Shown here in pieces: positions 28,785-31,699 of a stretch of 41,384 nucleotides of DNA; positions within the stretch are counted from its first letter, which is position 1, and each line of letters starts with the position of its first letter. The notes beneath the pieces are model-generated. The model was given only the letters and a program-made list of their open reading frames with translations, had not been told where the DNA came from and did not search any database. Origin of the DNA: a virus; IMG/VR virus record IMGVR_UViG_3300048588_000157, positions 1-41,384 of that record. One strand, 5' to 3'. Position numbers and translations under genes: made by a program.

Positions 28785-28809
28785 GAGGCCGGCGCAATCG
28801 CCGCGCCTC
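28785..28809 (-). promoter_or_regulatory. Hairpin between scaffold and capsid genes
   Basis: GAGGC-CGGCG, loop CAAT, CGCCG-(C)-GCCTC gives ten pairs with one bulged base, overlapping the scaffold stop. It is another U-tract-free hairpin in the late message. Confidence 0.5.
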
Positions 28810-29434
28810 ATTTCCTGCTTCGTCCAGCTGCTTGCCGGATGGCTGCGTTCATGTCGGTTCCAGCGGATTCGCCGCCGCCGGCTCCCGCGCCGGGATTCCC
28901 GTTGCTCGAGATCCCGAACAGCTCGGGCGCGTCTTTCTTTGCCTGGGCGATCACGTCCTTGACGTTGGTGATCGACCCGTCTTCTCCGTAGGTGACCTTG
29001 GTCTTCACGAGCTCGAAGATCACCGCCGGCCGCTTGCCGCCCGCCTCGAGCGCTGCATCCCGGATCACATCCTTCGCCGCCAGCTCGCGCATTCGAGCGG
29101 TGGAGTCCGCGACGGCCTTCTCAGCCGCCTCGGCCCGCTCCTGGGCTTTCTGCAGCTCGGATTTGTCGCGATCCTCGATTTCCTTGAGGCGCTTTTCCGC
29201 CGCTTCAGCGCGTTTGCGCTCAGCAGCGAGAGCCTTCAACGCATTCTTTGCGTCGTCCTGCTCTTCACCCTCACCGGAACCGGCGCCTTCGCTCCCGCCC
29301 TTGCCTTCACCGGCCGCTCCGCCTTCACCGCCGCCCTCTTCACCCGACCCGCCCCTGATCAGGGGAGGAACGCCGTAGCGGGCAACGAACTCATCGAAGT
29401 CAGCCTGCGAAACACCCTTTGGCAGCGTAGGCAT
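28808..29434 (-). CDS. Capsid scaffolding protein
   Basis: It encodes 208 residues. ATG at 29434 follows AAGGAG at about 12 bases; the reading to 29476 would enter the hairpin region. Residues 28-65 are Gly/Glu-rich and flexible (GGSGEEGGGEGGAAGEGKGG). Residues 72-135 are a long coiled coil (ALAAERKRAEAAEKRLKEIE, DRDKSELQKAQERAEAAEKA). The end (AIRQAAGRSRK) is basic, as in scaffolds that contact the capsid shell. It directs procapsid assembly and is then released. Position before the capsid gene is standard. Confidence 0.85.
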   Translation of the reverse strand: MPTLPKGVSQADFDEFVARYGVPPLIRGGSGEEGGGEGGAAGEGKGGSEGAGSGEGEEQDDAKNALKALAAERKRAEAAEKRLKEIEDRDKSELQKAQERAEAAEKAVADSTARMRELAAKDVIRDAALEAGGKRPAVIFELVKTKVTYGEDGSITNVKDVIAQAKKDAPELFGISSNGNPGAGAGGGESAGTDMNAAIRQAAGRSRK

Positions 29435-29466
29435 TGATTTGAAAGCTCCTTGGGATTCAGTCGGTT

Positions 29467-29544
29467 GGGGAATCACTCCCCGGCCTTAGTGGCTATCCCT
29501 GGAATCACTCCAGGTGGAGAATCACTCTCCGCGATAATGCCACT
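29467..29544 (-). promoter_or_regulatory. Cluster of three hairpins with identical GTGAT loops in the scaffold leader
   Basis: On the minus strand: GGAGA-GTGAT-TCTCC (29530-29516), CCTGGA-GTGAT-TCCAGG (29514-29498) and GGGGA-GTGAT-TCCCC (29481-29467). The stems differ in sequence but remain paired while the loop stays the same, a sign of selection on structure. An outer pair AGTGGC/GCCACT (29488-29493, 29539-29544) encloses two of them. The last hairpin ends 15 bases before the scaffold ribosome site. Confidence 0.75.
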
Positions 29545-29614
29545 TTAGCACCGCTGGTAGTGATTATAGGGACATGGAGATGTCAAGTCAATTAAGCGCG
29601 GATTCGAGCCGAGG

Positions 29615-31699
29615 TTAGCGCCATGATCCACGTTTCGCGGCTAGCTCCTTGGCTCGACTTAGACTGCCTTCACTCCGACTTAGACCCCAGTCTTCAGAGC
29701 GCCGCTCTTGCACCAGATCTTCGAGCTGGATGAGCCCGTCTACGAACGCCTGGAACTTGCCGGGGCCAAGCACGCTCCGTTGCTGAGCGGCCGGAAGTCG
29801 GTCGAACGCCTCTGCCCCGGTTGGTTCCTTTGGCGGGTCGTAGTCGCCGGCGGGCATTTCTATTCCAAATTGAGCCGCAAGATCGTCCCACGAGACCGTG
29901 GCGGGAATCATGGAACAACGACAAGCAACATGACTTCCCATAGGTTCCTCTACATCGTGCTCTGTTCCATCCATTGCCCAGCAGTTGTGTACAATTACAC
30001 CATCGGCGATGTACCAGCCGGTTTCCGTTTGGAGGTTGTAAACATGCCCGCTAAAGCGACTGATGCTGACATTGAGGATGCGATCCGCGACTACGTCGCC
30101 GGCGAACGGGCGAAGGTCGTCGCTCGTCGGTATCACATCGACGACAAGCGATTGCTGAGAATCCTGAGCGAACGCGGGGTGGTCAGGCCCGTTGGTTCGG
30201 GTGGATTCAAGGCCGGCCCAAAGGTCGGGGCTGAGCGACATGCGGTCCTCAATCTCCCCGATGCCGAGATTGCCGCCCGCTACGTCGCCGGCGAAACCGA
30301 ATACGGACTCGCCAAGGCGTTCGGGGTCAATCGCACCACGATAGCCACTTGCCTCAAGAATGCCGGTGTTGCTCGGAGAACCGCTGCCGAGTCCTATGCG
30401 GTTCGATCCGGCTCCATTCCGCTCAAGCCCCGCGATCCCGTTTTCAAGGATCATCCCGGCCCGTATGTTCATGACATCGAGAAGCGGATCAGCGCCGCCA
30501 AAGAGTTCCAAGCCCGCGCCGCTGAGGGAATGCCCTCGCGGGCCTCTGACGCCGAACGCATCTTGCTCGATACCCTCCGCAATCGGGGAATTGCGGTCAC
30601 CCCGCAACAGGCGGTCGGTCCATACAACGTAGACATCGGAGCCTTTCCCATCGCCGTGGAAGTCTGGGGTGGCGCATGGCACTTCAGTCGGGACCATTCC
30701 GAGCGAAACCGCTACCTCCTCGATGCGGGTTGGCATTTGCTGGTGGTCTACGTCGATAAGCGCAGCAGCCCCCTTACGTCCGGAGCCGCTGATCACGTGA
30801 TCGCCTTCCTTGAGGACGCCCGCCGCAACCCATCCACTCCCCGTGAGTATCGGGTGATTTGGGGTAGCGGTGAGCTCTTTTCCTCCGGCCGTCTTGATGG
30901 TGACAACGTCGCCAACGTAGTGCCGCGAAAACACTTTCTCGACACGCGGGCCTGACACGATCGTGCCGGCCGGGAAGCAAACCGCGCAGGTGCTCGAGGT
31001 GCGGCCCGATCGCCAGATCCACTTCGGCGTGATCTCCTTGTTCTGGCGCCACGTCTCGCGCAGCGATTCCTGGTACGCCCGGTTGATTTCCGTGCGGGCG
31101 ATCTGCGCGCCCTTCCAGAGCGGCACAGCAAGCGTGTCGCTTAGTCGCCGGCCGATCACGTCAGAGTGCGTGCCCAGGACGATCGCTTCGGTCAGGATGT
31201 TGCCCGCTCGAGTTGCGGCTTCGGATCCGTAGCGGTTCAGGAGTTCGGCGACCGGGCCGCTCGACTTCGCCGCGGTGATGACTTCGAGCGCTTCCTGCGG
31301 AAAGGTCATGAAGCTGCTGGCGTTCGGGAAGTTTGGGGGTGGAGGGCTGGTCGTATCGATGAACTCTTGCGCCGCCTGGTACGCCGTTCGGGCAACTTCT
31401 CGCTGTTGCTGGGCGATATAGGCCGTTCCGTTCTGCGCGTACCGTTGGAGCAAATCCTCCGCCTGCTTCGCCAGATCGAGCGCCCGCTGCAGCCGAAAGG
31501 TGTTTTCGTTGACGCCGCGATCGCGGGCCGATGCCACGCCCTGCTGCGCCGCCTCGAGTTCGCGTAGCAGCGCCTGATGTGCGGCCCGAAGTTGCCGAGC
31601 GAATTGCGCCTGAGCGGCCTTGTCGCGGTCGATCAGCTCACGTCGGTACTTGCGTACCGACCGGGTGACCCGCGCCTCGAACACGGCCACATCAGTCAT
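29615..31699 (-). CDS. MuF-type head morphogenesis protein interrupted by an intein
   Basis: The 694-residue frame starts at ATG 31699 (TAATG overlap with portal). Residues 1-240 are the N-extein: coiled-coil N-terminus and the MuF-type core (QIARTEINRAYQESLRETWR, WIWRSGRTSSTCAV). Residues 241-572 are the intein and 573-694 the C-extein. Joining the exteins gives TCAV-CWAMDGTEH...HVACRC, the intact MuF Cys/His motif, so splicing should restore a 362-residue protein. MuF proteins sit inside the head near the portal and are needed for assembly or DNA ejection. A separate gene lies antisense inside the intein DNA (30044-30955). Confidence 0.93.
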   Translation of the reverse strand: MTDVAVFEARVTRSVRKYRRELIDRDKAAQAQFARQLRAAHQALLRELEAAQQGVASARDRGVNENTFRLQRALDLAKQAEDLLQRYAQNGTAYIAQQQREVARTAYQAAQEFIDTTSPPPPNFPNASSFMTFPQEALEVITAAKSSGPVAELLNRYGSEAATRAGNILTEAIVLGTHSDVIGRRLSDTLAVPLWKGAQIARTEINRAYQESLRETWRQNKEITPKWIWRSGRTSSTCAVCFPAGTIVSGPRVEKVFSRHYVGDVVTIKTAGGKELTATPNHPILTGSGWVAAGVLKEGDHVISGSGRKGAAALIDVDHQQMPTRIEEVAVSLGMVPTEVPCATPDFHGDGKGSDVYVVWTDRLLRGDRNSPIAEGIEQDAFGVRGPRGHSLSGAGLELFGGADPLLDVMNIRAGMILENGIAGLERNGAGSNRIGLGSGSPSNTGILEASGYRGAIDPERLGESVFGFAGDVAGGNLGIGEIEDRMSLSPDLWAGLESTRTNGPDHPAFAQDSQQSLVVDVIPTSDDLRPFAGDVVADRILNVSISRFSGHVYNLQTETGWYIADGVIVHNCWAMDGTEHDVEEPMGSHVACRCSMIPATVSWDDLAAQFGIEMPAGDYDPPKEPTGAEAFDRLPAAQQRSVLGPGKFQAFVDGLIQLEDLVQERRSEDWGLSRSEGSLSRAKELAAKRGSWR
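29990..30035 (+). promoter_or_regulatory. Candidate expression signals of the antisense endonuclease gene
   Basis: TACAAT at 29990-29995 is a good -10 box (no convincing -35 is seen), and GGAGG at 30031-30035 is a strong ribosome site eight bases before ATG 30044. On the other strand the same bases encode Ile-Val of block G and Asn-Leu of block F of the intein. Confidence 0.55.
30044..30955 (+). CDS. Putative Vsr/DUF559-like homing endonuclease, antisense within the intein
   Basis: It encodes 303 residues; ATG at 30044 has GGAGG at eight bases. Two helix-turn-helix repeats come first (residues 6-50, VAGERAKVVARRYHIDDKRL; residues 71-112, YVAGETEYGLAKAFGVNRTT). A PD-(D/E)xK nuclease domain of the Vsr / very-short-patch-repair-like group follows at 167-262: Glu171 (AERILL), Asp197 (YNVDIG), Glu206 and His213 (VEVWGGAWH), then 'LLDAGWHLLVVYVD'. 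This combination is that of homing endonucleases associated with phage introns and split inteins. The gene lies wholly in intein DNA on the opposite strand, codon for codon complementary to the intein frame. DNA cutting at the empty MuF site is inferred. Confidence 0.85.
   Translation: MPAKATDADIEDAIRDYVAGERAKVVARRYHIDDKRLLRILSERGVVRPVGSGGFKAGPKVGAERHAVLNLPDAEIAARYVAGETEYGLAKAFGVNRTTIATCLKNAGVARRTAAESYAVRSGSIPLKPRDPVFKDHPGPYVHDIEKRISAAKEFQARAAEGMPSRASDAERILLDTLRNRGIAVTPQQAVGPYNVDIGAFPIAVEVWGGAWHFSRDHSERNRYLLDAGWHLLVVYVDKRSSPLTSGAADHVIAFLEDARRNPSTPREYRVIWGSGELFSSGRLDGDNVANVVPRKHFLDTRA

Follow-up and report, generated by a model that had tools for sequence, protein, structure and literature searches.

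The stretch of DNA analysed here, hereafter "the window", covers positions 1 to 41,384 of IMG/VR virus record IMGVR_UViG_3300048588_000157, i.e., 41,384 bases of a virus whose terminase, portal, MuF, scaffold, and capsid genes lie on the minus strand. The MuF-like gene contains an intein, and the DNA of this intein contains, on the opposite strand, a second complete gene, called below the nuclease gene. The features discussed here are the following:

29615-31699, minus strand: ORF of a MuF-like minor head protein gene (Phage_Mu_F, E = 9e-4; phageSPP1_gp7, E = 6e-4; Intein_splicing, 46 bits)
29984-30979, minus strand: intein of 332 aa, from Cys1 to His-Asn / Cys+1 (NCBIfam intein_Nterm and intein_Cterm above cut-off; HINT fold resembling RecA mini-inteins)
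29984-30001, minus strand: intein block G, GVIVHN, a splicing motif
30026-30046, minus strand: intein block F, HVYNLQT, whose complement holds the ribosome-binding site and ATG of the nuclease gene
30031-30035, plus strand: GGAGG ribosome-binding site of the nuclease gene (Shine-Dalgarno match of at least 4 bases in 29/35 loci, 17.1 expected)
30044-30955, plus strand: antisense nuclease gene of 303 aa, open from ATG to TGA, wholly within the intein and in exact complementary codon register with it
30062-30187, plus strand: first helix-turn-helix, nuclease residues 7-48 (AlphaFold helices; helix-turn-helix families)
30260-30367, plus strand: second helix-turn-helix, nuclease residues 73-108 (AlphaFold; helix-turn-helix family matches)
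30548-30892, plus strand: Vsr/EDxHD-like nuclease domain, residues 169-283 (E171, Y194, N195, D197, E206, H213, R221)
30650-30664, both strands: island conserved in the two frames in the per-column test, intein DFHGD (minus) over nuclease (I/V)AVEV (plus)
30854-30865, minus strand: intein block B, TPNH (T39 and H42 invariant in 19 inteins)
29553-31279 (approximate): putative co-conversion tract, departing from the closest empty allele in the comparison of flank identities

The MuF ORF is continuous and not split, as are the host genes of all the relatives that we read; its 694-aa precursor is predicted to be reduced to 362 aa once the intein is excised. With the junctions SSTCAV/CFPAGT...GVIVHN/CWAMDG, all the features of a class 1 HINT intein are present, namely Cys1, the TxxH of block B, block F, the penultimate His, the terminal Asn, and a Cys/Ser/Thr at +1. 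In the AlphaFold model of the intein, pLDDT is about 90 at the ends, residues 1-69 and 294-332 being of high confidence and matching RecA mini-inteins, and below 50 for residues 109-293. An in-frame nuclease in the sense middle was rejected, as the family scan of the window matched no nuclease family in the sense frame of the intein and AlphaFold predicted no fold there. From the model, we infer that this middle of about 200 residues is a disordered linker, of which the absence of stop codons would be the chief demand; since it must stay stop-free, the nuclease gene avoids the codons TTA, CTA, and TCA.

In Pfam, the plus-strand product of the window has only one, sub-threshold, restriction-endonuclease match (MTES_1575, E = 4e-4), and the cut-offs of MTES_1575, DUF559, and Vsr are not reached: MTES_1575 matches 17 of 31 family members at E <= 0.01, and the window protein scores 20.8 bits against the required 38.2; it is, therefore, a relative of this Pfam family rather than a filed member. 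A profile built from the alignment of 31 relatives retrieves the homing endonuclease I-Bth0305I (3r3p, E = 1.6e-6) and the endonuclease-like protein 3hrl (E = 1e-4), while its N-terminal part matches helix-turn-helix proteins. The AlphaFold model (pLDDT 79) is paired by Foldseek with I-Bth0305I (probability 0.99) and Vsr (1cw0, probability 1.00), although the E-values exceed 0.001 despite these high probabilities. Y194, N195, D197, E206, and R221 are found in 31/31 sequences, E171 in 30/31, and H213 in 19/31; it is conceivable that some copies without H213 are inactive or use another residue. No conserved column corresponds to the second Asp of the EDxHD set. The product is thus a relative of Vsr/EDxHD-type nucleases with helix-turn-helix domains, the exact EDxHD motif not being established and cleavage being inferred. 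The initial annotation, made without database searches, had proposed the intein and nuclease coordinates, their frames, the splicing motifs, the GGAGG site, the complementary register, and an intein middle devoid of endonuclease (no family match, no fold), all of which held; its "Vsr/DUF559-like nuclease" holds as a Vsr/EDxHD relative, on the I-Bth0305I profile match and Foldseek, without reaching the DUF559 or Vsr cut-off of Pfam.

The signals that start the nuclease gene are written in the splicing blocks of the intein. The start codon is complementary to the His codon of block F, which is CAT in 31/34 loci, the remaining three having CAC and, hence, GTG starts; an ATG is found at block F in 32/35 loci when 17.5 are expected. 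Observed against expected counts, for this codon and for the ribosome-binding site, show that both signals are maintained in block F through a non-random choice of codons. Upstream of the nuclease, at 34-60 bases, TATAAT boxes occur in 15 loci where 5.1 are expected (P = 3e-4, the loci being related), some of them accompanied by a perfect TTGACA or an extended -10. Block F thus carries control signals of the nuclease, as does block G in some family members, transcription itself being inferred. The promoter part of this does not extend to the window: the TACAAT box at 29990-29995, which had been put forward as its promoter, is no better than in synonymous reshufflings of the same protein sequence (P = 0.79), and no sigma-70 match was found on the plus strand of the window. 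A window promoter is, thus, weakly founded and not supported, and the promoter claim is restricted to the family level.

We searched phage records by tblastn with the plus-strand protein, which yielded 117 of them at E <= 1e-3, including about 65 Salmonella phages and many Pseudomonas, Gordonia, Vibrio, and Escherichia phages; those listed lie within MuF, head, or unnamed genes. About 60 other loci, mostly MuF genes, were read one by one; in every one of them the nuclease gene is antisense, the complementary register is preserved, and the sense frame stays open. They come from IMG/VR contigs, phage isolates, a Chloroflexota plasmid, and MAGs; the isolates infect Salmonella, Escherichia, Shigella, Pantoea, Cronobacter, Klebsiella, Pseudomonas, Vibrio, Idiomarinaceae, Aggregatibacter, Edwardsiella, Gordonia, Rhodococcus, and Mycobacterium. 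One has to keep in mind that these loci are not all independent; nuclease identity goes down to about 21% and GC content ranges from 38 to 70%, the loci at 38-45% GC likewise retaining an open antisense nuclease. Among the listed phage matches (E <= 1e-3), no free-standing or sense-oriented homologue was found, every locus that we opened being antisense. None of the phage records examined annotates the nuclease; the intein is annotated in two (Snoke and fEg-Eco06), and two contain unnamed antisense "hypothetical" fragments. In a scan of bacterial genomes from the phylum of the Chloroflexi locus, the element was found in 1 of 301, the seed genome itself, and is therefore mainly phage-borne.

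Some copies depart from this common situation. In Virus Rctr197k, an antisense-nuclease intein lies in a deoxycytidylate (dCMP) deaminase gene (L027:745-1641); at another locus (L012:1187-1984), the host gene has no Pfam match on either side of the intein; and the Chloroflexi-associated inteins (L002 and L040) are far longer (451 aa in L040) and inserted at a different MuF position.

Overlapping frames raise the question of which one is under selection. The complementary register sets position 1 of each intein codon opposite position 3 of a nuclease codon. For these intein residues and with the codon usage of the gene itself, the antisense frame of the window alone would be open by chance with a probability of 0.013; this value rises to 0.3 in some high-GC loci, and the product over 46 loci is about 1e-108, loci that are related and hence not independent. 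In seven ungapped relatives (83-100% identical), the variable sites in nuclease codons 31-180 number 41 at first and 120 at third positions of the nuclease; in the MuF extein of the same seven relatives, used as a control, 62 are at extein position 1 and 157 at extein position 3 (Fisher P = 2e-19 for the contrast of codon positions between nuclease overlap and extein). The signal reverts at both ends of the nuclease, where it overlaps the splicing blocks, and five other groups show the same flip, including the one formed by the window, L001, and L038. A per-column test on 40 loci agrees: across nuclease residues 76-200, conservation of the intein scarcely exceeds what the nuclease imposes on it, and that of the nuclease is about double what the intein imposes; over residues 251-300, which face intein blocks A-B, the pattern is reversed, and the intein is the conserved one. 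This codon-level substitution analysis shows that purifying selection protects the nuclease in the middle of the intein and the intein at its ends. A chance antisense ORF was rejected on the low-GC loci, the codon-position and per-column tests, and the open-frame probabilities.

The island at 30650-30664 stands apart, as it is conserved in both frames beyond what each coding constraint imposes on the other; it contains the invariant Glu of the nuclease. On the intein side, DFHGD falls in the region predicted to be disordered, and why the intein needs it is unexplained.

Antisense coding within inteins is not restricted to this nuclease. In the Gordonia phages Nordenberg, Sitar, Lennon, Thing3, SchottB, and Barsten, a MuF intein carries an antisense gene for a 196-aa LAGLIDADG-like protein:

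L077:2486-3076, minus strand: Nordenberg-type LAGLIDADG-like gene, in complementary register inside the plus-strand intein L077:2375-3199

This protein matches no Pfam family; it matches PHROG 5046 (E = 2e-15) and I-MsoI (E = 1e-3), and it resembles annotated phage endonucleases. Between Nordenberg and SchottB, differences at the first, second, and third sense positions number 49:7:14 in the overlap and 12:7:70 in the N-extein; those of the overlap pile up at sense position 1, and the antisense protein is therefore conserved and under purifying selection. A scan of viral contigs found no more relatives of this type. The gene is unrelated to the window nuclease, and the antisense design has, in all likelihood, arisen at least twice.

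The search for alleles of the window locus returned, besides relatives with the same arrangement, five IMG/VR relatives (L014-L018) with an empty site, which reads TCAV/CWAMDG without insert. Identity between the window and L014 is 92-100% at -1500 to -400, falls to 80-86% between -300 and the site, and is only 67-76% over 0 to +300, where L014 and L016 share 84-95%; similarity returns at about 29553. These divergent flanks look like a foreign tract co-converted with the intein, which is our favoured reading, homing being inferred; ordinary phage mosaicism remains possible. In the Guernseyvirinae, fEg-Eco06 and Snoke have exteins that are 89% identical and carry different antisense inteins at different sites, each site being empty in the other phage; the nearly identical MuF genes of L035/L082 and of L019/L024/L026 have their intein sites 66 bases apart.

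A side observation concerns the neighbouring scaffold gene (28808-29476), at the start of which three adjacent hairpins (29467-29530) differ in their stems but share a 7-base loop, which reads AGUGAUU in the minus-strand RNA. All three are conserved in L014-L016 and two in L017/L018 (fold z-score -4.2), and a TTGACT-17-TATAAT match lies just upstream (29591-29563, minus strand). They may form an RNA-binding regulatory leader, a suggestion that we make tentatively.

The two frames, the selection on both, the homology of the nuclease, the splicing motifs, the empty alleles, and the foreign flanks were computed directly. We think it very likely that they belong to a mobile intein with a separate homing endonuclease gene on the opposite strand, keeping in mind that transcription, cleavage, splicing, and homing are inferred, without RNA, protein, or cleavage data. 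Sense reading, as part of the late head operon, would yield the MuF precursor, whose N- and C-terminal HINT pieces would fold, excise the intein, and ligate MuF, the middle serving as a linker. Antisense reading, from the start and ribosome-binding site in block F (and, in many relatives, from a promoter in or beside block G), would yield the nuclease, which is inferred to cleave MuF alleles lacking the intein, at their insertion site, during mixed infections; repair would then copy the intein, the nuclease gene, and their flanks jointly. Two further proposals of the initial annotation did not fare as well: no locus with a split host gene was seen, leaving an intermediate toward split inteins unsupported, and, in the absence of expression data, nothing was found in support of mutually antagonistic expression of MuF and nuclease.

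Four other explanations have to be considered. In the first, a genuine nuclease has no part in homing; it would serve the phage, by cutting competitors' DNA or in packaging, with the intein as a mere shelter. Phage nucleases of the Vsr and HNH types may indeed have other roles, and the gene is intact across many lineages instead of decaying, as would be expected under a homing cycle alone. However, its sporadic presence, the differing sites in near-identical genes, the copy in a dCMP deaminase gene, and the exact empty sites fit selfish homing, and the exclusion of competitors would rely on this very cleavage and does not conflict with homing; we regard this explanation as unlikely. Equally improbable, in our opinion, is that the differences in the flanks reflect ordinary phage mosaicism around an old, immobile element with a fixed nuclease. 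The downstream edge of the divergent tract is close to a gene boundary, as this would predict, but the upstream edge is inside MuF, about 300 bases from the site, and the nearest relatives (92-100% at -1500 to -400) are without intein. Still less likely is an antisense gene that mainly regulates MuF by transcriptional interference, its protein being secondary: the gene is convergent with the late operon and has promoter-like boxes upstream in many relatives, but selection acts on the protein, with third positions of the nuclease free and first and second ones constrained, which a regulatory RNA would not give. Finally, a meaningless plus frame arising as a by-product of high GC over a conserved sense middle, for which the open-frame probabilities of the window (about 0.013) and of some high-GC loci (up to 0.3) could be invoked, is all but excluded by the 38-45% GC loci that retain the frame, by substitutions in the middle that track nuclease codons, and by a plus-strand product having a nuclease fold and invariant catalytic-type residues.

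The mobile intein with an antisense homing gene that we favour resembles several known systems without matching any of them. Like canonical LAGLIDADG/HNH inteins, it has a HINT domain interrupted where the coding information for the nuclease sits; in those inteins, however, the nuclease is an in-frame part of the intein polypeptide, whereas here it is a separate protein from the opposite strand. Dassa et al. (2009) reportedly described, mainly in phages, fractured genes in which split inteins occur with genes for Vsr-like (EDxHD) nucleases; both systems combine an intein splicing domain with a separately expressed Vsr-like homing nuclease gene, but in fractured genes the intein is split with the nuclease gene between its halves, while the window has a continuous intein ORF and an antisense nuclease overlapping blocks A, B, and F. 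The EDxHD homing endonuclease I-Bth0305I (PDB 3r3p; PMC3943268) has a nuclease domain homologous to that of the window family (the profile match at E = 1.6e-6) but is encoded in a phage group I intron and not in an intein; the window family has N-terminal helix-turn-helix domains and a motif E...D...E...(H)...R that is not a demonstrated EDxHD. The ShiLan domain and other "hidden" out-of-frame HNH endonucleases of phage methylases (PMC11855218) are likewise homing-type nucleases read in a different frame of an insertion, the host frame itself staying open; they are, however, HNH enzymes on the same strand, in insertions without detectable splicing function, whereas the window has the opposite strand, complete splicing blocks, and no HNH match. 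Lastly, the nuclear group I introns Didymium L2066 and Dir.S956-2 (PMC9548176) contain homing endonuclease genes on the other strand from both the self-splicing element and the gene that hosts it, but these are RNA introns of eukaryotic rDNA, in which the nuclease gene is an extra insertion in a peripheral helix without double protein coding. We found no report of an antisense homing gene in an intein in the open-access literature searched; Gosselin et al. (2025; 10.1101/2025.01.02.630785), on non-canonical inteins of actinobacteriophages, was not covered and may overlap with our findings.

A bolder reading has two parts, which we hold jointly to be likely. The first is that antisense-encoded homing endonucleases are a general, convergent architecture of mobile inteins, involving at least two unrelated nuclease families, the Vsr/EDxHD-like one in many phage groups and the LAGLIDADG-like one in Gordonia phages, both maintained codon against codon with the intein. 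The second is that the splicing blocks also encode the start, the ribosome-binding site, and, in some family members, the promoter of the nuclease, so that the loss of one function would inevitably affect the other. Such an arrangement would be a third way to couple protein splicing and homing, beside in-frame fusion and insertion in a split intein, in which the two strands of a stretch of about 900 bases each encode a full protein. This architecture provides a large natural data set of antisense overlapping genes with clean codon-level signatures, would explain the long "featureless" middles of phage inteins, and makes testable the idea that a promoter of its own may free the nuclease from the late expression of its host gene.
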